Shown: positions 9,501 through 61,750 of the stretch, piece by piece
Layout: each line of letters begins with the position of its first letter
How positions within the stretch are numbered: position 1 is the stretch's first letter
Source: Phanerodontia chrysosporium
Lineage: Eukaryota; Basidiomycota; Agaricomycetes; Polyporales; Phanerochaetaceae
Assembly (NCBI GenBank): GCA_001910725.1
Contig: MJGA01000006.1
Span: 620,001 to 684,000 of the forward strand
Length of the DNA stretch: 64,000 nucleotides
Direction of reading: 5' to 3'
Notes under the pieces: generated by a model
Databases searched by the model: none
Told to the model about the DNA's origin: nothing
Seen by the model: the letters and a program-made list of their open reading frames with translations, nothing else
Translations under genes and position numbers: made by a program

Positions 9501-10993
9501 GCGTTGTCGTATGCCTGCTGGAAATACGACGGGCGAAGAAGCGTCCTAGAGTCTACATTGAACACACACCCAATGGCGCTCAAGTATCTGATGCCGGCTT
9601 TGATTCACTTCTATATCGGTACGTATAGTCCAGCTTATGCCTGCCTCTTGGATCGACATTGACTGGGGCTAGAGGTCGAACAGACTGGTGCAAGCTCGCA
9701 ATTCTACGATAAATTCAGTAAGTGCCTTCGGCTAGTTTGTACAGCTTTTGTTAATGCAAGTTGTTTCAGACGCACGGTAAGCTCTCATGATTGGAAAATG
9801 TCTCTCAGAACCTCACATAGCATCTAGGCGGGCCATTGCATTGGTATTCCGCACGATTTGGAATAACCCTCAACATCGCGACGCCCTCAAGGCTCAGACC
9901 ACGTACGTCTGGAGAATGATCGTGTGCAGAGAGTTTTTGACAGGAGACACACAGAACGAACATGGACCGCTTTGTCCGCTTCGTCAACCTCATGATCAAC
10001 GATGTGACCTACCTCTTGGACGAGTGCTTGACTGACCTCGCGAAGATCCACGAACTACAGACCGAGATGGCAGATACAGAAGCCTTCAGCCGTCAACCTC
10101 TGCAGTACCGTCGCGAGCGCGAGGGAACGCTGCGCTCGCTGGAACGGCAGACCACCACTTATACGCAGCTTGGGAGCTCGACCGTTGCACTGCTCAAGAT
10201 GTTCACCGCCGAGACCAAGGAGCCATTCATGGTGCCCGAGATCGTCGACCGTCTCGCTGCAATGCTCGACTACAACCTCGACGCACTCGTCGGCCCGCGC
10301 TGCCGCGAGCTGAAGGTGAAGGACCCGGAGAAATACAAGTTCAAGCCTCGCGAGCTGCTCGCCGATATCCTTCAGGTGTATCTCAACCTTTGCGAGCAGG
10401 GCGAGTTTGCCCGTGCCGTCGCGAATGATGGGCGGAGCTATAAGAAGGAGATCTTCGAACGGGCGGCAGCATTGGCGACCAAGCATTTCTTGCTCAAGAG
10501 CGAGAACGACGTCGAACGCCTCAGGTTGTTCGTGGTCAAGGTCGAGGAGACAAAGGCAACTATCGAGGCTGAAGAAGACCTCGGCGATGTGCCTGATGAG
10601 TTCCTCGGTAAGTGCTCGCCCGTAAAGGCCCAGACTGCATTCTTACAAACCTCTTCGCTAGACCCGCTCATGTACACCCTCATGCGCGACCCCGTCATCT
10701 TGCCCAGTTCGCGCACTGTGATCGACCGATCCACGATCAAATCGCACTTGCTGTCTGACTCCAAGGATCCCTTTAACCGTATGCCGCTGTCGCTCGAGGA
10801 TGTTATACCTGGTATGTTGCTTCGGACGTCGAGAAAATGAACATACTGAACAACGAATGCTGTAGATGTTGAACTGAAGGCCAAGATAGACGCCTGGCTC
10901 GCGGAGCGCAAGAACAAGAACACTGCCTTCGATAAGCCAGAGTCTGAAGTAGTCGACATGAACAAGGATGCGGATGCCATGGACACTTCATGA
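6554..10993 (+). CDS. UFD2: Ubiquitin conjugation factor E4 (Ufd2 family, U-box ligase)
   Basis: Ufd2 extends ubiquitin chains on substrates already carrying ubiquitin and works with Cdc48/p97 in proteasomal degradation. The gene has well over a dozen short introns. The N-terminus ([11 protein letters not shown], then [11 protein letters not shown]) leads into a Pro-rich linker. The long Ufd2 core follows, with hallmarks such as [39 protein letters not shown]-type [18 protein letters not shown] and [11 protein letters not shown]. The C-terminal U-box reads [18 protein letters not shown]...[16 protein letters not shown], the fold that binds E2 enzymes. Two places near the 5' end need care: the shift of frame near 6780 fits an 86-base intron (6708-6793), and the junction near 7060-7110 needs a less canonical donor. 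Stop at 10991-10993. The start is well placed: Ufd2 proteins begin just before the LKRLAKLQ motif. Confidence 0.95.
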
Positions 10994-23035: not shown

Positions 23036-25181
23036 ATGGATCGAGGAGGAGGGAGTGGTCGAGGTGGTCCTTCGAGGCAGGGAAGCTCCCTTCCGAGGAC
23101 GCTTCACGGTAGTCTGCTACACACAGACACCGGGGAAGAGGGAGACGTCTTCGCGGAGGAGCCCCAAGCAGTCGAAGCCCTGGAAGCCGGCCAGGATGAG
23201 CCCCCACCGTACCCAGTCTACGTCCCCAGCACCACACGGCCTGCATCGGTCCCATACTCGACGGCGGCAGTCCCCGGCCCCTCGTCCTTCCCAACCTTCG
23301 AGCAAGGCAGCAGCAGAGGCCCCGGCGAGCTATCAAGAGCCTACCCTTACAGCATCGAAACGCATGCCGAGCAGCAGCAGCCCCCACGAGTGCGCCAGGA
23401 ACGGAACCTGGCCCTGCCGCCATTCCGGACACAGGCAGCGCCGAGCACGGATCCAGAGCTGTATGCCTCCTCTGTGGCAGCCTCCCGCCTCAACTTCAAT
23501 TATGCATCACCAGCGCCGCCACCGCCTGGTCGCCCGAGCTTGCCACCAGTGTCGTCACTGGACAGCGCCCTCGGGACGACCTCGTATGCCGGATCGTCTG
23601 CCCAGGAGTACTATTCCACTCCTCGAGGAAACACTTGGGACACTGCTCCGAACCCGTATGTCACCGAACGTCCGATGGCGAGGACAGCCTGGTCCTATCC
23701 TGGCCTGTCCGAGCACAGCCCGCCCACACGAACATACCCAGCTCCTTCAGAGATTTCGGGGTACTCAGAAATTGCGCGATGGGGCCAGTATACGAGAGCG
23801 GAAAATTTCTCGCAGGAGGAGGGTCGAAGTACCGCTGCTCACCGTGCGTTTTTTCTGTTTGCAGTCGGCTTTCGTAGTGGTGGCTGACGAGACCATACAG
23901 TGAGTGCCGCCCGATCCACGATACTCGAGTCGCAGCAGCTATCCGACCAGGCGCGAGCCGCCCGCCTCTATCAGCCCCAGCCGCAGGTTCCGATGCAGCC
24001 GAGTCAAATCCCTGTGCCGTCAGTCGAGCTAGCCCAGCCGTTCTACGAGATCGCCGAAGCGCGGGAAGGATACTCGCAGGTCTCCTCGGAGTTCTCGCCT
24101 GCCTACAGCGGGAGGACGCGCGAAACGACCTCCCCGTCCGCTTCGGATGCGAGTCCATTAGCCCATCGCGGCAGAACGACGTCGACGTCTGCGCCGCTGG
24201 GATGGCAGGAGCCGCGACGGGTGGAGATGGGGAGCAGCCGCTCGCCTCGACGTCAGCCGCGCAACGGCCGTCCAGCACCCAGCTTGGGAAGCGCAAGGCC
24301 AGCGACCACGATGACGACTCGTCGGAGGACTCACCGGTGAGGAAGGTGCCCAAGAAGACACCGATCGCGTGCAACTTTTGTCGCGGTAAGTGCAGCTCGA
24401 CAAGGCCAGCCTAGTCGCTCACGCGCTGACCGGTTGCCTCTTAGGGCGCAAGCTGAAATGCGACGGGCGCACGCCAGCCTGTGGGCACTGCGAGAAGAGG
24501 CGGCAGCCCTGCACGTACGTGGATGCAGTGAAACGACGAGGACCGGGCAAAGCGCCAAAGGGCCATCGGAAGAGCCAGCAGCAGAAGCCTGATCGGTCGA
24601 AAAGCGCTGCTCAGGGTCCTGTCCAGGCGGGCCCGTCCTCGTCGCCCGCCTCCGCCAGACAAAGCCAGCCGCTGCCCGCGAGCGTTTCTCCCGAAAACCC
24701 CTACACCCGATACCAAGGCATGTACCTGTCGACGGCGCCCGTGACGACACAAGCGGGGCCGGCGATGGGGAGCCTGCCGTCCAGAATACCTGTGCAACCT
24801 CCATACCCGTCGACTCAGTTCGAATTCACATACCCAGCACCGCGCCAGGCGACGAGCACCGGCGCGCGGGCTGCTTACGAGCGGACGACGTTCTCGGACG
24901 ACTTTGGTCTGCCGCAGCAGCTGCCATACCCCGCGGCGGGGTCGTCGCAGGTGCAGACGCACGCGTTTGAGCCGCCACGTGTGCAGAGCACGCCGCAGCT
25001 GCAGGCGGGGTGGCCTGCGGCGGCGAGCAGCGAGAGCCCTGCGACGAGCAGCGCGGCGGCGGCCGTCCACGACCATGACGACGAGCGCGGCTCCCGGGCG
25101 CGGGAGCTGCACGAAGCTGAATATCCTTACGATACACCCGCGGGGTCGGCGCGCGCACCTGGGCCTGGCCGCGAGCGTTAG
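23036..25181 (+). CDS. Zn(II)2Cys6 transcription factor
   Basis: Exons 23036-23843, 23901-24385 and 24445-25181. The first ~450 residues are low-complexity (Pro, Ser, Tyr, Gln). Then comes a basic patch, GKRKASDHDDDSSEDSP, and a fungal binuclear zinc cluster CNFCRGRKLKCDGRTPACGHC...C with canonical spacing C-x2-C-x6-C-x6-C-x2-C-x6-C. RRGPGKAPKGHRK follows, a tail typical of PRIB-like basidiomycete factors. The cluster binds DNA; targets are unknown. No fungal-specific middle homology domain is visible. An intron interrupts the cluster after CNFCR in phase 1. One base appears to be missing in the G run at 24229-24232; with it the total coding length becomes a multiple of three. An earlier start exon at 22185 is possible but not shown. 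Confidence 0.82.
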
Positions 25182-25698: not shown

Positions 25699-28623
25699 AT
25701 GGACACCGCCGACCAGAGGGCCCGCCGCGAGCAGGCCGACTACCGCGACCTCCCCCGCACCGCCCAGGACGCCTCGCGGCCCCGCGACGACCCGCCCCAG
25801 GACCCGAGGTGCGACAGCGAGCCCCCCGGCTACACACTCATGGTCGCAGGCAGGCGCACCGGCAAGACCTCCTTCCTCCGCCTCCTCCTCGACACCAGTG
25901 TCATCTCCCCCTCCGCGACCCACGACCAGCTCCAGTCCGTCGCAAAGTTTATCCAGGGATGCGCGGGGTTCACCCCCCACGTCAGGTCCGTGTCCGTCAA
26001 CATCGACCAGGCCGTCGCGGACGACAAGGGCCGCCAGGACATCCAGACCCTCAACCTCACCCTTATCGACACTCCCTCCCTCGACTACGACGACGAGGTC
26101 GGCTCCCAGCAGGTCGTGAGCGAGATCCTCAGGCACCTCGACGCGCGGTTCTCCGAGAGCATCGAAGACGTGAGCATCTTCTCTTTCTCTCTCCCCCTTG
26201 CCGTGTCCGACCGATCTGCGTTGTGCTCCAGGACCGCAAGGCTTTGACCGGCGACCACCACGTCCACCTGTGAGTAGCGGGAGCAGTCCACACGCGGCGG
26301 CTAGATTGAAAGCGTCTTTCCCCCCTTCCCCAGGTGCATCTACTTCCTCGACCCCGATGCCATTGTCCCGCCCTCCGTCGTCCCTCCGGCGCCTCTCATG
26401 TCTCGGACGCGCAACAACAGCCTCTCCAAGCCGGAGCTCGAGCCTGTCATCCTCGAGCCCCCGGTGACCACGAACCCGCTGCTCTGTCGCCCAACCCTCC
26501 CGCAATCCGACATTTCCACCATTCGGCGCCTCTCTGGCCGGGTCAATGTACTTCCGGTCATTGCCCGCGCGGATGTCCTCTCCAATGATCGGCTCGCGGC
26601 CGTCAAGCTCGCCGTCCGCCGCGACCTCGCCGCCGCCGGCATCGGCTTTGGCATCTTCGACGGCGAGATACAGGGCCAGTACTCCTACGGCAGCGACGTC
26701 CCCGACATTATCGTCCCCAAGGTCAGCCCCGACCACGCTAGTGTGTACAACGGCACATCCAACGGCTCATCCTCAGGAGGACCCTCGCCCCCGTCGACGC
26801 CCATCACTCCCCATCTCCTTCGTCTTCCGTTTGCCTTGATCTCGCCCGATATCTATTCTCACAGCGACGGCGTGGCGCGACCAGCGCCCCCGCGCCATGA
26901 GCTACTCAAGGACTACATGCCTGCCAACGAGAGAACCAGCAAACAAACCGCTGCCAACAAAATTGTCCGTGGCAAGTGGACCAGGAGCTACAGGTGGGGC
27001 AGCCTGGACTGCATGGACATCAACCATTGCGACTTCCTGCACCTGCGAGGCGCCGTCTTCTATCACATGCGGGTTCGTATTTTCCCTCAAGCTGCGGCTC
27101 TCGTTTTGATGACGATTTTGCGACGGCTGCCCGTCCTTCCCCTCAACAGACCTTGCAAAAGTACACTCGCGAGTACTTGCTCGAGAAGTTCCGCGTGGAA
27201 TACCAGCCGACATACGCGGCTAACGTGGCGCGCATGCAGCGTTCATCTCCGGTGGTCAATCGCATGCCGCAGCACATCCCGCAGGCTGCCCGGCCGGTCC
27301 TGGCGATAGACACTGCTCCGAACCACGTGCCGAACAGGCACGCGTCTCATTCCATCTCCCACAGTGCGGAGAGCGGTATGTCGTCGGGAAGGACCGCTGT
27401 CAACCCCGAACTCTCGCCCGTCACGTCGTCCTCTGCGGGTCAGTGCTCTCATTTTACGTATGCCGTGGCCTCCCTCCGCGGAGATGGAAGACTTCCCTGC
27501 GTACTGACCCTTCCTCTCCAGTGGGCTCTCAGCGCGTACGGACGAAGAAGACCAACGTGGCATGTAACTTTTGCCGCTGTGAGTGTGCACTCTGTTATCA
27601 AGGATAGTGCAGCCCTGACACTTCTATCAGCCCGAAAGCTCAAATGCGACGGCGGCCGGCCTGCTTGCAGTCAGTGCTTCAAGCGTTCGCACCCCTGCGA
27701 TTACACGCCGAGCCACAGGCGTCGCGGGACCAAGAAGCGCAAGTCGGACGATGGGAGCGAGAGCGACCTGGAGATGGACATGGAGAGTGGCGAACCGTCG
27801 GGCGACATGGAACCCTCGATGTCTCCCGACATCCCTTCACAGCCTCATTCCCGCAGGAACTCGAATGCGGTCGACATGATGATGGAGAACAAGCTACCGC
27901 CCATTGATCGCCCTGAACAGCACAACACAGTCCTTCCGCCAATCTCCCATCCATCATCCATGATGATGCAGGGACCACCCCAGGACCGTGGGTACCCCAT
28001 GCAGCACGAGCTGCCGCCTATCGCCACCCTTCCGGCCCCTACGGCGAACGACATGCAGGAGATGCAGACACTGGCGCCGCTGCGGAACCAGGCCGACATG
28101 CAGCCTCCGTCTCAGCAGCAGCGCCGGCGCACGTCTTCCGCAGCGTCCACGAAAGGACGCCAAAATGGCTACGGCTCGAAGATCGTGGCTTGCAACTTTT
28201 GTCGGGGTACGTCTTCCCGTGTGGTGCCCAGCTGCATTTTCCTAACTATGTTCTACAGCGCGCAAGACTCGGTGCGACGGAGGCCATCCTGCGTGCAGCA
28301 GCTGTGCGCGGCGCCAGCTGCCGTGCAACTACGTGAACGACCCGTCTTCGGGCAACCCCAAGGGCCGCCCGAAGACTGCGGGAGGGTCCTCGGCAGGACC
28401 CTCCGCTCCGCCGTCGAGGCGTTCCTCCCCTACGGCCCAGACTCAGGGAGGAGGGCCCTTGGCAGGGATCCCGAACGGCTTCATGCACCACATACGCGCT
28501 GCGGATGTTCCCGATCACCGCAGCTTCGACATGGACGTGCCGCCTTCGAAGAAAATGAGGATCACGGACGATCTGCCGCCGATGCCGACGGCGCATGCCA
28601 TCGCCGTCTCCTCTGCTAATTAG
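25699..28623 (+). CDS. Septin-type GTPase fused to two Zn(II)2Cys6 clusters
   Basis: Seven exons (25699-26169, 26232-26269, 26334-27072, 27150-27438, 27522-27578, 27631-28206, 28259-28623) give 844 residues with every junction in frame. The N-terminal half is septin-like: P-loop GRRTGKTSF (~51-59), LTLIDTPSLDY (~120-130), the septin G4-type VIARAD (~245-250), and the septin unique element YRWGSLDCMDINHCDF before residue 416, then LQKYTREYLLEKFRVEY. The G3 glycine is replaced by Ser, so GTP hydrolysis may be weakened. A Ser/Pro-rich linker of ~90 residues leads to zinc cluster 1 (~527-554) and cluster 2 (~719-746), both with perfect six-cysteine spacing, and basic tails. The role is unknown; membrane or filament association combined with DNA binding is conceivable. 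A transcript starting at a Met codon in exon 4 could make a factor without the G domain. Confidence 0.8.
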
Positions 28624-29238: not shown

Positions 29239-31359
29239 ATGTTCGCGTCCATACGCCGCAGATACCAGAAGAAGCAGGAGCGCGGAGGGCCTCCGTACAT
29301 TCGCGCGTCGCCGTCGCTACCGGAGCTCCACACCCAAGGGATACCATGGCCCGAGGACTTTATTGATACCTCGGAGGCACCCAAGGCTCCTGAGCCTGTC
29401 ACTTCTCCGCGAGGTGCGTCTGTGTGCCGCCGCTCGAGTATGCTACTGCGTCGCTGACGCGCTGCAGAGACGTATGGTAGGCCCGCAGGCGGGCCGATAT
29501 CCACGCTCTACACCTCACACCCGCCGTCTGCGTTTGATAATCGAAAGTCTGGATACAAGGCGCGGCTGAAGCCCAGTCAGAGGCGTAGCCGTGAGCCTAC
29601 GTCGTTCAACATCATGGTGCGTGTCTCTGTAGCTTGCATGTGCGGTACTCTGAAATATGGCCCGATCAGGTCGTCGGTGGGCAGGGCACTGGAAAGACCT
29701 CACTTCTCAGGTTGCTACTAGAGACCGCAGAGATATCTCCGAATGCTTCTCCCGAACAGAGGCACGCTTTGGACGACTTCCTCCGCGGCGCGCCCAAGCG
29801 CACGCAAGATATCCACAGCTGTCGTATCGAGATATGCGAGTCCAAACACGATCGCCTCCTCTTCTCTGTGATAGACACCCCCGGACTGGACTTCCGTGGC
29901 GGTCACGAGCTGACTCTCGAGCGTCAAGTCTCTGCCATTGTGAGATATATCGATACTCACTTTGCCGATACTCTCAACGAGGTGCGCTTTGCACGTTGTT
30001 TATGGTTGTCTTACTGTCTCATGCGAGCTTTGTGGGCGCATATATCAGGAATCCAAGGTCGTGCGTCAGAATAAAGGCGACAATCACGTTCACTTGTGAG
30101 ATCATGCATCGATGTATATGCTGTCACACAGGCTCACATTCGCGTCCTCAGGTGCATATACACCATTGATCCGTCAAGGATCGTCTCTTCTGCTGAACGC
30201 AGATCCCACTTGTCTGTCCACACCTCGATGCGTTCGGATTTGACGGTCTCCAGTCAGACGCCGACCCAATCGCCAGTCTCTTCTGATTACCCTTCGCATG
30301 CGTCAGATGACGATACACCCGAGGAACTTTCTCTGTCTCCCGCCGATATCGCTGTCATGCGGCGGCTTGTCAAGAAGACGAACCTGTTGCCTGTCATTGC
30401 CCGTGCGGACACCCTGACGGACGACACCCTGGATGCGATAAAGAAAGCGGTGCGGCGGGATCTCGACGCTGCAGGGCTTGATCTCGGCGTGTTTGGGGCT
30501 GGCAAGGCTGCCGATATGCACGACTCGCGGCGTGACTCCCACGCTACTGGGAATGGCACCGTTGACGGCCATGCGGAGCGTTCACACAGCCCAAAGGACG
30601 ACGCCCATGGCGATTCCGAGGACGAGGAGCGCCGCTCACGCCCGACGATCAAGCTCAGGGGCCCGCGCAGCACGTTCAAGATGCCCTGGAACCGCTCGCG
30701 CTCCCGCACGCGTATCGAGGAAGCCGAGCCTACGGACGAACCAACAAGCGTCGACACGATGGATACAGAGAGCGTCGCCAGCGTCCGCTTTTCTGCCAGG
30801 CGCGTCGCCCAGACCGACATCGCTGAGATGCTCCCCTTTGCGTTCATCGCGCCCGAGACGTCGCGGCGGCGCCGTGTGGCGTACGCCGCACCGCTCGCGG
30901 CTGATCGCCAGTCTATCATGACGGGTGAGGGCCCTGCGTCGCCCTCTGAAGACATGCACAGCACCGAGTCGGCGATGTCCTCCCCCGTCTCTGGCCCACG
31001 TCATGGACCGCTGCTGTCTGGCCCGCCGGCAGACCTGCGCGGCGTCTTCGTGCGCAAGTACCGCTGGGGCACGATCGATGTACTCTTGCCTGAGCACTGC
31101 GACTTTGCGGCGCTGCGCACAACAGTGCTGTCCACGCATATGAAGGTGAGCATCTGAGCTATGGCACTGATGTGGACATGTGTGCTGACGAAGCCGGCAG
31201 ATGCTCAAGATTCGGACGCGGGAGGTCCTCTATGAGCGGTACCGTACCGAGAAGCTCCTCGCGCGCAGAGCGACGAAGAACATCCACCCAGAAGAAGCCC
31301 GCAAGATGCTTCAGGGCATGCTAGATGCTCCCCCAGTGCCTGGGACAGACCTACTCTGA
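29239..31359 (+). CDS. Septin-like GTPase
   Basis: The start MFASIRRRYQKKQERGG leads through two short introns to the P-loop VVGGQGTGKTSLLRLLLETA. Then come FSVIDTPGLDF (canonical G3), a conserved exon junction at NHVHL/CIYTIDPS, the G4-type NLLPVIARADTLTDD, a long Ser/Arg/Asp-rich insert (~220 residues, not found in classical septins), the septin unique element RKYRWGTIDVLLPEHCDF, and a short C-terminus REVLYERYRTEKLLARRAT. Septins form filaments at the membrane and bud or septum sites. This one is larger and more divergent than core fungal septins and lacks a clear C-terminal coiled coil, so it is probably an accessory septin. Introns fall at the same places as in the preceding fusion gene, which makes the two tandem paralogues. 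Stop at 31357-31359. Confidence 0.85.
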
Positions 31360-31605: not shown

Positions 31606-32724
31606 TCACTGCTTCTTCCTCTTTGCCAACTCGTCGATTTCTTCCTGTGATAGGCCGTTAAGGCGCTCCAGAAGGTAGTCCACCTGGGAGAAGATTCAGT
31701 CCTGCATTGAGGTAGGTCGCAGCGGCGAACTTACCTCGACTTCCCTTGTTAGTGGGATAATGTAGTACTCGTATAACTCGACCACGCCGTCGACATCGAT
31801 CTTGAACGTATCACCTTTCGGCTCGCCGTCAGGGGCAAAGTCCTGTGCATAGACGGCAGCCTTCTTGCGTAGCCGCTGCAGCAAAGCGCGCTCGACCGCA
31901 GGTTTCGTAATCAGTGCCTCCAGCGCCTGGCGGTTTGGGTTGAGGATGTGGGGGATGAACGCGGCGGGGTCGTCCATAAACTTCGACTCGGACACGAATT
32001 TGCCTGGACATGACATCAGCTTCGCCACGCTCTTAGTACAATAGATCGGGACGCACCGTAATGCACACGCTTGCTGATCGCCTGGAGGACCTCCACGTCG
32101 ATGGCCGCGGAGCTGCCGTAATTCCCGTCATCCTCGTACTCATCCTCCCCGACGATGCCGTTTGCACGCTTGAGCGCGGCGAGTGCGAGCGTCGCCTGCT
32201 TCGTGATGCGCGGGATGATGGCCCGCGTGTAGAACGAGAGGATGCTTGGGTTTGCGTTTACGGTGTTCGGGTAGAGAATCTGAGGGTACTGGATCGGCTT
32301 CAGCACCGGCGCAGGTAGCTCTGCGAGCGGCGTGAACGGGTACTCGTCCGGGCTGTGCGGCGCGTGTCAGTCGCGCGTCCATCAGACAAAACAGGAGCGG
32401 AGCAGGCGCACCTGGTGTATCTCCGGGCCTTGGCTGCACAAAACGCGAGACAATAAGCGGACAAGCACGGGACGAAGGGCGTGACCACGTACCTTGGAAC
32501 GACTCAGTCTCCTTGAGGAACCAGTCAAGCCAGCTGCCCTCGAAGCCGATGGCTTTCAGCTCAGGCAGCGCGCCGCGCTGGTACGCCTTCGGGTTGTGCG
32601 CGAACTGGGCGCGTTCGATGAGGGCGAAGATGATTGTGTCCTCGAGGCGCGTGAGGATGCCGCGAATGCGGTCGAGGTTGAGTGGGTCCCCGCCGAGTGT
32701 GAAGTTGAAGAGCGTCGTGGACAT
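31606..32724 (-). CDS. ARO7: Chorismate mutase
   Basis: It converts chorismate to prephenate, the first committed step to phenylalanine and tyrosine. ATG at 32722-32724 begins MSTTLFNFTLGGDPLNLDR, with RGILTRLEDTIIFALIERAQ as the N-terminal helix. Later exons give RRYTSPDEYPFTPLAELP, PNTVNANPSILSFYTRAIIP, NYGSSAAIDVEVLQAISKRV followed by HYGKFVSESKF, then the C-terminal helix ending VDYLLERLNGLSQEEIDELA. The Arg and Lys of the ISKRVHYGKF segment correspond to active-site residues of the yeast enzyme, and the NYGS region matches its regulatory-site neighbourhood. The length (about 260 residues) fits the fungal AroQ type. Introns are short and keep the frame. Confidence 0.93.
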
Positions 32725-34494
32725 AGTCGTGGTCGTGGTCGAGGACGCGACCCTTATGCGACGGTAAGTACAGGGGACTCACGCGCGGATGCGCAAGCTG
32801 CAAGAGCTACCCACCAGAGATAGCGTTGCGAATGGACCGGAATGGCTGTTATCTGAAGTCGAGAGAGAGATCTGAGGCGGAAGACGTAGAGACACAGGCG
32901 GTGTGTAGTATTTGAGTCATGGTCAACGGAGCGACTCTTGGTATTCGCTCGCTTCACACCGGCAAATACCCGGCGCCTGCAACTTTTGTCTCGTCTCTCG
33001 ATCACAAACCGACGTCAAACAACGAACCTTCGCTGTTTCGTGTGTGCAGCCCCAGAGAACCTGTAGACTGCGTGGTGTCAGTGTATTGCGCGAGCTGCAC
33101 AGGTTCAGTTCCGGCCCATCCTCCTTTCACACAGTTCAACGCCTTTCACACGGTATCGGAGCCTCGTCTCATTCCCTCGGGGATGCAGAGAGGCGTTGGG
33201 AAGTGAAAATACACGGTATCTGCGTACGGCTCTTGTCCAGCGTATAGCATGGCGTTTTTTGGTGCGATACCTTATCTACGGTGAACTGACCCCGCAGCCA
33301 CAAGCTGAGGTAAGGCCTAGCTCCTAATACATCAAAGAAACTGCCTAGTATCGACTAAGGAAGGTTAGACCAAGAGGTGAGTACTTTCTCTGGAAAGACG
33401 TGAGTATGCTCATCAGTCATATTAGTCAACGATTGTCCTGGCCGGGCCATCGCCAGGACTCTGGCTTCGACGCTTCAGCCTTGGTCGCAGCTGCCAAATG
33501 ATACAAATGAAGTGTTAACTTCTGCCAGGAGACTGTGGAGCAAACAGGACGGTGTATCTCCTTCTACATCCCCCGGCGATGCGCGGGGGCCAGTCGATGC
33601 GCGAGCGCCCCATGTGGTGACCTAGCTCAGGAAGCCAACCGTATGCAACCGCCAGCCTCCATGCCTGCTCAAGTTATTCGGAGGGTACATCATGGTTGAT
33701 CTCCAGGTCAGAAGTTGACAGTGGGGTCGACGCTCTGCAAATCTGAAAATCCGGACAAAGTCAATGTAGCTCAGGGGGTTGCTGCTGATAGAATTGAAGT
33801 CGCAAGACTCTCATAAACATGGCGGTATAGAAGAGCGGCCGAACTGCCCGACTTCGAGTCACAAACAGGCGAGACAACGAGCGTTGGGACGCCGACAAGA
33901 GGAGGATGTCGGACACAACGTTCGACTGCAGATGCTGGCAATATCACTACGGCCGTCTCCGAGGTTCCAGCTCAGGCGCCTGATATACAACCTCCTGTCT
34001 TCAGCCAATAACGAGCCGCGAATGAGGTGCGTTCTGCGTTCACAAATCGTCAACCTACCGCCTGAAACAGACCGCGCCCGGGCGCGCAGCAGGCGTGAAT
34101 GGCCCCATGTTCGTTGGCGGCCCGGATGGAGGCCAGATTACAGACATTGTTGGAGCTCCATGGGATGCGATCTCGCGATAGAAGCACAGAGACCCTCCGC
34201 GAGCAGGGTCGAGTCACTTGCGCCTGCATTATCGTGATGGCGAGACCGTGCTCCGGCCAAACGCACTGCTGCGTTGAGGGTCCCCTTGGGAAATAGGGTC
34301 ACCAATGATGCGTCAGGCTGCACTATAGGCCTGCAACAGTCCGACAGGGCAGGCCCAACTACGGGCCCGACGGCGTTCCACGGTCCCCCGTATTTCGCAA
34401 GCTGCACCGCGCTCCCCAATGGGAGACGGTATATAAGGCTCGTGCTAGGGGCTCCAGGGAAGGCACCCTTCTCGTCTGCCATCCATCTTCTGCC
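32725..34494. other. Intergenic region, 1.77 kb, no gene seen
   Basis: Between divergently placed ARO7 and THI4. Short frames on both strands (for example 33779-34237 plus) have no recognisable content. A TATA box for THI4 lies at its right end. I looked for a thiamine-pyrophosphate riboswitch upstream of THI4 and did not find the conserved core. Confidence 0.5.
34430..34436 (+). promoter_or_regulatory. TATA box of THI4
   Basis: The sequence TATATAA lies 59-65 bases before the THI4 start codon, a usual place for a strongly regulated fungal promoter. Confidence 0.6.
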
Positions 34495-59554: not shown

Positions 59555-61750
59555 CTACTTGCTTCGAGCCGTCTGCTTGATCTTCCGTTTCTTCTCGGCT
59601 TGGGAATTTTGTGTTTACGCTTCTCTCGCGCCTCGGCTTTGGCAGCCTTTTTGCGCTCCTAATGTAGTCCTAGATGAGAACCGTATGAACCCGAAACCAA
59701 GGGAACGAGGCTTACCTTTTTGGCCTCCTTATCTTCATGCCTGTGGCCCCGAGGCTTCCGTTCCTTGAACCCATCCTCGCCCTCTTCACCTTCGTCGCTC
59801 TCGCCATCTTCACCCTCATCTCCACTCCCGCTCTCTTCGCTGCCGCTCTCATCTTCGTCCTTCTCGTCCGCGAACTGCACCGCCTTCTTCTCTGCAGCCT
59901 TTGCACCCTCCTTCTCCTTGGGCACGACGATACCGATCGTGTCTTTGTAGATCAGCTTCTCGCCCTCGCCGGCATTGAGCACACCGACGTCACGCTCGGG
60001 GTCGAACACCTCGTTGAGCGTGCGCGGGATGTATGAGCGCATGAACACTGAGTCCTCGTCCGCCGCCGAGCGCGCGTTGACAGCGTGCGCATCCTCGCCC
60101 CCATCCTCCTCCTTTGCGTCCTCAGCTTCGGCCTCTGCGATGCGTCGCTCGAGCACGGCCTCCGCATCGCCTTCCTCGCCTAGTGTGTCCTTCGTGACGA
60201 ACTCGAAAGCTCGTCGAAGGCCAAGGGTACGAACATCGCGTCGTGAGAAGAAGTCTTCGATGTTCCGCAAGTCAGACCGAAGGAAGTCGAACGCATGCGG
60301 GTGGTCGTGCTCGACGGACTGAGAGACGTCGATGATATACAGATGACCTTTCTCAGGCTCATCGTTTTGACCTTGTTCAGGCGCCTCGGTAGTGATAGAC
60401 GGTTTCGCTTCGACGTGGTACAAGATGTTGTACTCTGACAGATCGGCATGTACGAGCTTGCATTCATGGAACAGTTTGCGAGTGGTCAGCAGCAGCTCGC
60501 GATACAGCCTTGGGAACTCGGTGTAGGGAATGTTCGCGTCCTTCAATCGTGGAGAGGCCCTAAAACGATATCAGCGGACATTCTAGTCAAGTATAACAGT
60601 ACAGCAGCTTACCATCCTTCAGCATCTCCAATGAAACCCATCACGAGGACATTCTCACGGACTTCTATGGGCTCGGGACAGCGTATGCCTGCTGTCTGCA
60701 GACGCTTGAGATTGCGCATCTCCTTCTCAGCCCATACGCGGACCATTTTACGCGGATTGTGACGGCTAGAGACTATATGGTTCTGGTCCTGAACATGGCG
60801 AGTGTAAGATGACGTACCTGTAGCCCTTGCGGAACCTGAACTCCCCAGAAACATAGCGATCACGATCTTTGAAGACCAGGATAGACGTCTTATAGATCTT
60901 CAAAGCGAGGTGTTTACGATCAGGCGTAAGTGCGTGGTAGACATTGGCCTTTTGACTTGTGAGCTTGAGTCGCGCAAAATAAAAGACGGCGAAGTACCTC
61001 CTTACCCGTGCTCACACACCCATTGACCTCGTATAATAACCCACGACCAATCATCTTGAAGAGAATGATGCGAGTACGGGGATCAAGAACCTGTTCAGTA
61101 GTAGCGCGGTCCGCTTTGTCCTTCATGTTGGCTGTCGCAGAGGGACCCTTCCGGTTCACGCCTACACCGAGGTCATAGGGAATGTCGAGATTTCGGAGCC
61201 GTGAAGAGTACTTGGATAGTGCCTGAAGCTGGCTTTCGGTCTTGTCTTTCGAGTGACCAGAGAAGCTCGCGGCCGCTTGCTTTTTTACGGGTCGTGGGCG
61301 ATTTACTGCAGGTAGAGGCGCGACCGCCGCTTTCTCGTTGGTCGTGGATTTAACACCTTGTGCAGCACCAGTATGAACTGCGACATGCTGACGGATGCGG
61401 TTATACTGTTTCGTAAAGTCTGGTGTCGGAATAAATTCGTCTGGGTTGCAGCGAGGATAGAACCAGCGCACCTCGTTCAGCGATCTCCCAATCCTCGTCC
61501 TCTGCTCTCAGTTCTTCGAATGCTGCATGTTCAAGGGCGTCTTCCTCATCCTCAAACTCGTCAGGTTCTTCTTCGTCGTCCTCACTTGAACTCGACCACT
61601 CGAGAAGGTGTTCGTCGGCTTTGTCTTCGTCGTCGATGAAGCGGTGTCCAGCTTGGGCACGTCCGTCTACGGTTTCGATGGGTGAAGAGACAGTGACATC
61701 CTCTGGTGCATCGTCAAACTGCCCTCTTCGACGGGTTCTGCGGTAGACAT
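59555..61750 (-). CDS. RIO1: Atypical serine/threonine kinase RIO1
   Basis: Rio1 is an essential kinase/ATPase for the last steps of 40S ribosome maturation. The acidic N-terminus ([18 protein letters not shown] after adding one G at 61721-61726) leads to [19 protein letters not shown]. Further exons give [40 protein letters not shown] (P-loop-like), [25 protein letters not shown] (catalytic Lys), [18 protein letters not shown], then [14 protein letters not shown] (catalytic Asp and Asn) and [20 protein letters not shown] (metal-binding Asp). The tail is acidic and Lys-rich, and the end [14 protein letters not shown] needs one more base at 59597-59601 before the stop at 59555-59557. All kinase residues are intact. 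The two terminal breaks are unlikely to be real in an essential gene. Confidence 0.94.

Follow-up and report, generated by a model that had tools for sequence, protein, structure and literature searches.

A septin-type domain joined to two Zn2Cys6 clusters: a predicted fusion protein of Phanerodontia chrysosporium and many other Agaricomycetes

Can a single fungal gene encode both a septin-type GTPase domain and a pair of DNA-binding zinc clusters, and if so, what might the product do? The question is raised by a gene at 25699-28623 (+) of a 64,000-nucleotide stretch of Phanerodontia chrysosporium DNA (contig MJGA01000006.1), hereafter the window. Septins are membrane-linked filament proteins and zinc clusters are DNA binders, and an earlier, sequence-only reading had found the two joined in one frame, with seven exons giving 844 residues without frame conflict and with the end of the septin and the linker together in exon 4. 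Our splice check agrees with that model: each exon border is GT-AG, the spliced reading frame runs for 844 codons plus a stop with zero internal stops, and exon 4 is seen to hold both parts. Since none of the six introns has a length divisible by three, keeping any one of them would break the frame.

The domain content holds as well. A Pfam profile search placed a single septin-type domain in the same protein as two complete Zn2Cys6 clusters, each family scoring above its cut-off: PF00735 reached 102.9 bits (cut-off 26.2) in three stretches, which are parts of one septin domain split by insertions, and PF00172 reached 70.3 bits (cut-off 21) in two stretches. In a structure comparison that covered residues 40-440 only, with the zinc clusters outside it, the septin part has the septin G-domain fold. 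Across 121 aligned rows the septin unique element reads YRWG in 115 and FRWG in 3, and the G4 motif, which in the window protein is ARAD and conforms to the G4 pattern, keeps its aspartate in 120, the second position being arginine in 97, cysteine in 17, lysine in 5, threonine in 1 and a gap in 1. All six cysteines of both zinc clusters are kept in 113 rows, counted over all 121; by the pattern CX2CX6CX5-12CX2CX6-8C the window protein has two copies, as have 109 of the rows, while 10 have one and 2 have three.

The expectation that single proteins with PF00735 and PF00172 would be found elsewhere was borne out. A first search for relatives scored 7990 candidates, and each of the best 120 of its 227 matches carries both domains, down to 45% identity; among them is P0039 (Pleurotus pulmonarius, 49% identity). 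The closest named relatives among the matches listed are Phanerochaete sordida and P. carnosa (89% identity), and those matches span the Polyporales, Agaricales, Boletales, Russulales, Gloeophyllales, Jaapiales and Atheliales, the orders of Jaapia and Heliocybe having been looked up and the remaining ones being presumably those that the genus names indicate. Both domains in all 120 relatives listed, together with complete clusters in 113 of the 121 rows, argue that the fusion is not a matter of chance.

An artefact could still mimic such a fusion, either through two adjacent genes merged by the gene model or through a read-through transcript, and here the short contigs are informative. P0003, whose source tag 'lgn' we take to denote the Logan assemblies, has on a contig of 2345 bases a single open frame of 480 residues, identical to window residues 365-844 except for N400H, and agrees with the splice model over the four of its six junctions that it spans. 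It begins at the internal Met365, without the P-loop part, a point in favour of the artefact, and some 900 bases of the contig are unaccounted for. Longer frames lie on P0083 (830 residues on 2752 bases), P0105 (820 on 2592) and P0204 (929 on 3138). These three frames fill most of their short contigs, as would not be expected of intron-bearing DNA, and all four are best read as spliced transcripts that cross the join, although the records do not state RNA.

In favour of the artefact, a search for split forms, using the linker and zinc half as the query, returned 86 matches of which 67 lacked one or both domains and 19 had both, most full-length fusions being outside its length range. Among its 26 organism-named records, 15 had both domains and 11 were zinc-only. 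Most of these 11 have a ready explanation: P0198, P0200 and P0202 resemble the zinc gene that lies upstream of the fusion in the window, P0190, P0195 and P0196 are marked partial, and P0129, P0164 and P0165, which start within the fusion, look like truncated gene models. Two zinc-only records are left without explanation, P0193 (Schizopora) and P0188 (Suillus lakei); the latter, of 244 residues, has its own start and one Pfam zinc stretch, its second cluster looks broken, and it may be a decayed extra copy. The other 56 matches without both domains are mostly zinc-only (P0145 is septin-only), some on short contigs (P0155, P0185), and we have taken their frames for exons or fragments, though those on short contigs could also be truncated or zinc-only transcripts. 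A clean two-gene form was seen in no species, although the split-form search could not show one directly. Weighing these records against the 120 relatives and the transcript-like contigs, we reject the merged-gene explanation as highly improbable, and we regard as confirmed, from sequence comparison, a joined septin-zinc protein made from one gene, as the sequence-only reading had it. Its further proposal of a zinc-only form made from an internal start is not supported: a linker methionine occurs in 89 of 95 rows of a chosen set, but there is no common one, the best column holding it in only 21 of 95.

The sequence-only reading had also known of no described protein class of this kind, and in this it needs correction. 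A protein of this architecture, PoZCP55 of Pleurotus ostreatus, was published in 2020; it has septin domains together with two zinc clusters at its C-terminus and forms a separate clade among the 66 zinc-cluster proteins of that species (PMC7295025). Precomputed Pfam labels, too, show the two domains together. The window protein has the same combination as that published description and is very likely of the same family, the likeness being to the description in a one-species family census and not to PoZCP55's own sequence. PoZCP55 is described with 'three septin domains', whereas the three in the window protein are profile stretches of one domain; a function is not part of that description. 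The expression section of PMC7295025 does not mention PoZCP55, that paper is the only one naming the architecture that we found in open-licence literature, and no functional study of a septin-zinc fusion was found among the open-licence papers searched, a description elsewhere being possible. The fusion thus seems not wholly undescribed, but unstudied.

What, then, might such a protein do? The reading that we favour, and which has about an even chance of being right, is that of a nuclear DNA-binding regulator with the septin-type domain as its pairing module. By sequence, the order of parts is septin-type domain, linker, zinc cluster 1, basic patch, linker and zinc cluster 2. Ordinary zinc-cluster proteins pair by a coiled coil or a fungal transcription-factor domain; the latter, PF04082, is usual, not universal, in Zn2Cys6 proteins, and it was not among the families that Pfam reported for the fusion protein at E up to 1. 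The septin-type domain would replace either in pairing, the partner being either another copy of the fusion or the septin-like protein encoded just downstream, and the two clusters per chain would bind paired DNA half-sites. Compared with proteins of the GAL4 type (PF00172), the fusion shares two full clusters with standard cysteine spacing, but its clusters are C-terminal and doubled, and a septin-type domain is attached. Compared with septins (PF00735), it shares the fold, the P-loop lysine, G4 and the septin unique element, but it has insertions and a DNA-binding-type tail, most of the relatives examined are without the G3 glycine, and by residue counts a basic run ahead of the G domain is not evident.

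The septin-type domain has most likely kept the ability to bind guanine nucleotide, a prediction drawn from the retained P-loop lysine (117 of 121 rows, with 3 gaps and 1 glutamine), G3 aspartate and G4 aspartate. The G3 motif of the window protein is DTPS and not DTPG, which had gone unremarked in the earlier reading; across the rows it is DTPS in 116, DTPA in 4 and a gap in 1, so that DxxG is lost. The G3 glycine senses the third phosphate, and its loss in most lineages would be expected to leave a pairing module that stays stably bound to nucleotide and does not cycle as a GTPase.

Several observations weigh against the nuclear regulator. The P-loop has the Walker-A shape [AG]xxxxGK[ST] but differs from the classical septin form: measured against GxxxxGK[ST], the first glycine is alanine in 114 of the 121 rows, and the fourth position is arginine in 109. 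DTPG is kept by P0150, P0152 (Peniophora), P0204 and P0218, all outside the 121 rows (in the 95-row set by the first, second and third only, P0218 coming from a separate comparison), so a switch-impaired domain fails as an account of some lineages. Part of cluster 1 is missing in 4 of 121 rows and part of cluster 2 in 4 as well, and the linkers lie mostly below 50 in predicted local distance difference test (pLDDT) score, so contact between the parts is not to be inferred from the predicted structure. Other parts of the fusion protein could bind membrane, and the contrast in basic residues with the downstream septin-like gene is modest, the densest ten N-terminal residues holding 4 lysines or arginines in the window protein and 5 in that neighbour, which is the more basic of the two before the G domain.

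These last points bear on an alternative that we consider unlikely, in which the protein is a septin relative bound to the cortex or septum, a latent transcription factor whose zinc clusters are held outside the nucleus and freed on a signal. A septin fold with a conserved last helix would suit such a role, and the long, low-confidence linkers would permit release by cutting. However, the linker is weakly conserved except for one short motif, and the region before the G domain offers no clear basic stretch: by residue counts only, its net charge is -3 over residues 10-44 of the window protein, with a median of 0 over 68 rows. It is more doubtful still that the protein is a septin-like structural one whose clusters have lost DNA binding and act in another role, for example in protein or RNA contact. 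Zinc clusters can take other uses, and Cep3, a kinetochore protein, is among the weak structure-sequence matches, but the completeness of both clusters in 113 of 121 rows argues otherwise, as do their likeness in sequence to the GAL4 and PPR1 chains and the many flanking residues that are invariant in the chosen 95-row set, a set which omits 31 of the first 120 relatives, including all ten with a single cluster by pattern.

The features of the locus are collected in Table 1.

Table 1. Parts of the fusion gene and its two neighbours, in window positions
Feature	Position	Strand	Content
Exon 1	25699-26169	+	N-terminus, P-loop, G3 motif
P-loop AGRRTGKT	25846-25869	+	within exon 1
G3 motif DTPS	26068-26079	+	within exon 1
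Exon 2	26232-26269	+	introns on either side share position and phase with those of the downstream septin-like gene
Exon 3	26334-27072	+	G4 motif and septin unique element
G4 motif ARAD	26563-26574	+	within exon 3
Septin unique element YRWG...HCDF	within 26983-27072	+	exon 3
Exon 4	27150-27438	+	last septin helix (to about 27212), then linker with ARPVLAIDTAP motif
Exon 5	27522-27578	+	zinc cluster 1, first half; first Cys at 27563
Exon 6	27631-28206	+	zinc cluster 1 remainder (last Cys ends 27698), then inter-cluster linker
Basic patch RRRGTKKRK	within exon 6, after zinc cluster 1	+	
Zinc cluster 2 start	first Cys at 28191, within exon 6	+	
Exon 7	28259-28623	+	zinc cluster 2 remainder (last Cys ends 28326), C-terminus, stop
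Downstream tandem septin-like gene	29239-31359	+	six exons, 611 residues, PF00735 165.1 bits
Upstream single zinc-cluster gene, 3' part	24202-25181	+	PF00172 39.8 bits; 5' exons and start not fixed

The downstream gene has a canonical P-loop and DTPG, and Pfam reported no zinc cluster in it. Over 408 positions its identity to the septin part of the fusion is about 34%, and the three introns of that part all recur in it at the same places and phases. The best tblastn piece of the fused septin part reaches 65.5 bits to this gene and 41.6 to the four core septin loci, and the gene itself reaches 70.5 bits to the fusion and 58.2 to core locus L011, a small gap. We take the two for likely tandem duplicates, mainly on account of the common introns. 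For comparison, Coprinopsis cinerea has at least five septin genes (PMC10287680, in the part available). One core septin gene occurs twice in the P. chrysosporium genome with near-identical matches (C80:223150-224118 and C126:36243-37211), which may be two haplotypes kept apart in the assembly, and a pair of zinc-cluster loci on C87 and C71 gives a similar picture.

The gene order of upstream zinc gene, fusion and septin-like gene seems to be old, judging from other genomes. Two Tephrocybe gene models (P0014, P0030) run from the fusion into a septin-like gene, and the models P0046 (an Amanita) and P0066 are over-long, with one more zinc cluster at their start; the upstream gene scores 72.4 and 75.1 bits to this added cluster and slightly less, 67.4 and 68.9 at best, to their others. 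The consecutive Hohenbuehelia locus tags HGRIS_006079 and HGRIS_006080 belong to an upstream-type zinc gene and to the fusion. It might be envisioned that the three genes form one unit, the switch-impaired fusion and its canonical septin-like neighbour making a guanosine triphosphate-controlled heteropair that shuttles between cortex and nucleus so that the septin assembly state directly sets transcription in mushroom-forming fungi, but we hold this to be improbable. We also considered the upstream gene as donor of the zinc tail, from an intron common to the clusters, and dropped the argument because other zinc clusters of the same genome appear to have an intron at the same place, by a crude pattern that found the cluster in 11 of 29 loci. 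Elsewhere in the window are ordinary neighbours, a frame with a Ufd2 core and U-box at 9941-10840 (+) and one with a RIO domain at 59659-60570 (-), and a spliced gene at about 31696-32766 (-) which, by its translated pieces, is presumably a chorismate mutase.

How old the fusion might be can be approached from its distant members. P0199, a distant fusion whose frame appears to run through a kept intron, was used as the query of a search that needs shared words and scored the 7992 closest candidates; 90 of its 94 matches, query included, have both domains, and beyond the Agaricomycetes these candidates gave only the crayfish septin P0225 besides fusions and their pieces, which does not show absence. 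P0204 and P0218 have the architecture of the window protein, septin and two zinc clusters, and their zinc parts score 110 and 104 bits against Serendipita (Sebacinales) records, the best match being 85% over 54 residues; against these records the window protein scores 87 bits and P0199 88 bits, so a Sebacinales label for P0204 and P0218 is tentative. A tree was built from 21 rows (14 fusions, 3 septin-like neighbours and 4 core septins, the last being rough pieces, with the 16-residue piece core_L012 excluded). In it all fusions, P0204 and P0218 included, stand apart from neighbours and core septins with support 91.9/96, and when it is rooted on the core septins P0204 and P0218 branch first with support 97.4/98. 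This grouping fits a single, early fusion event, and the alignments and tree indicate that the septin-zinc fusion is old and conserved across many Agaricomycetes.

The only mention of such a protein that we found, in the part available of PMC7295025, is as one member of a gene census. A family that joins a septin to zinc clusters suggests a direct route from a GTPase fold of cell architecture to gene control; alternatively, the septin fold may have been reused purely for pairing. Either outcome, if true, would be surprising to septin biologists, and the role of the fusion is testable in tractable mushroom models.
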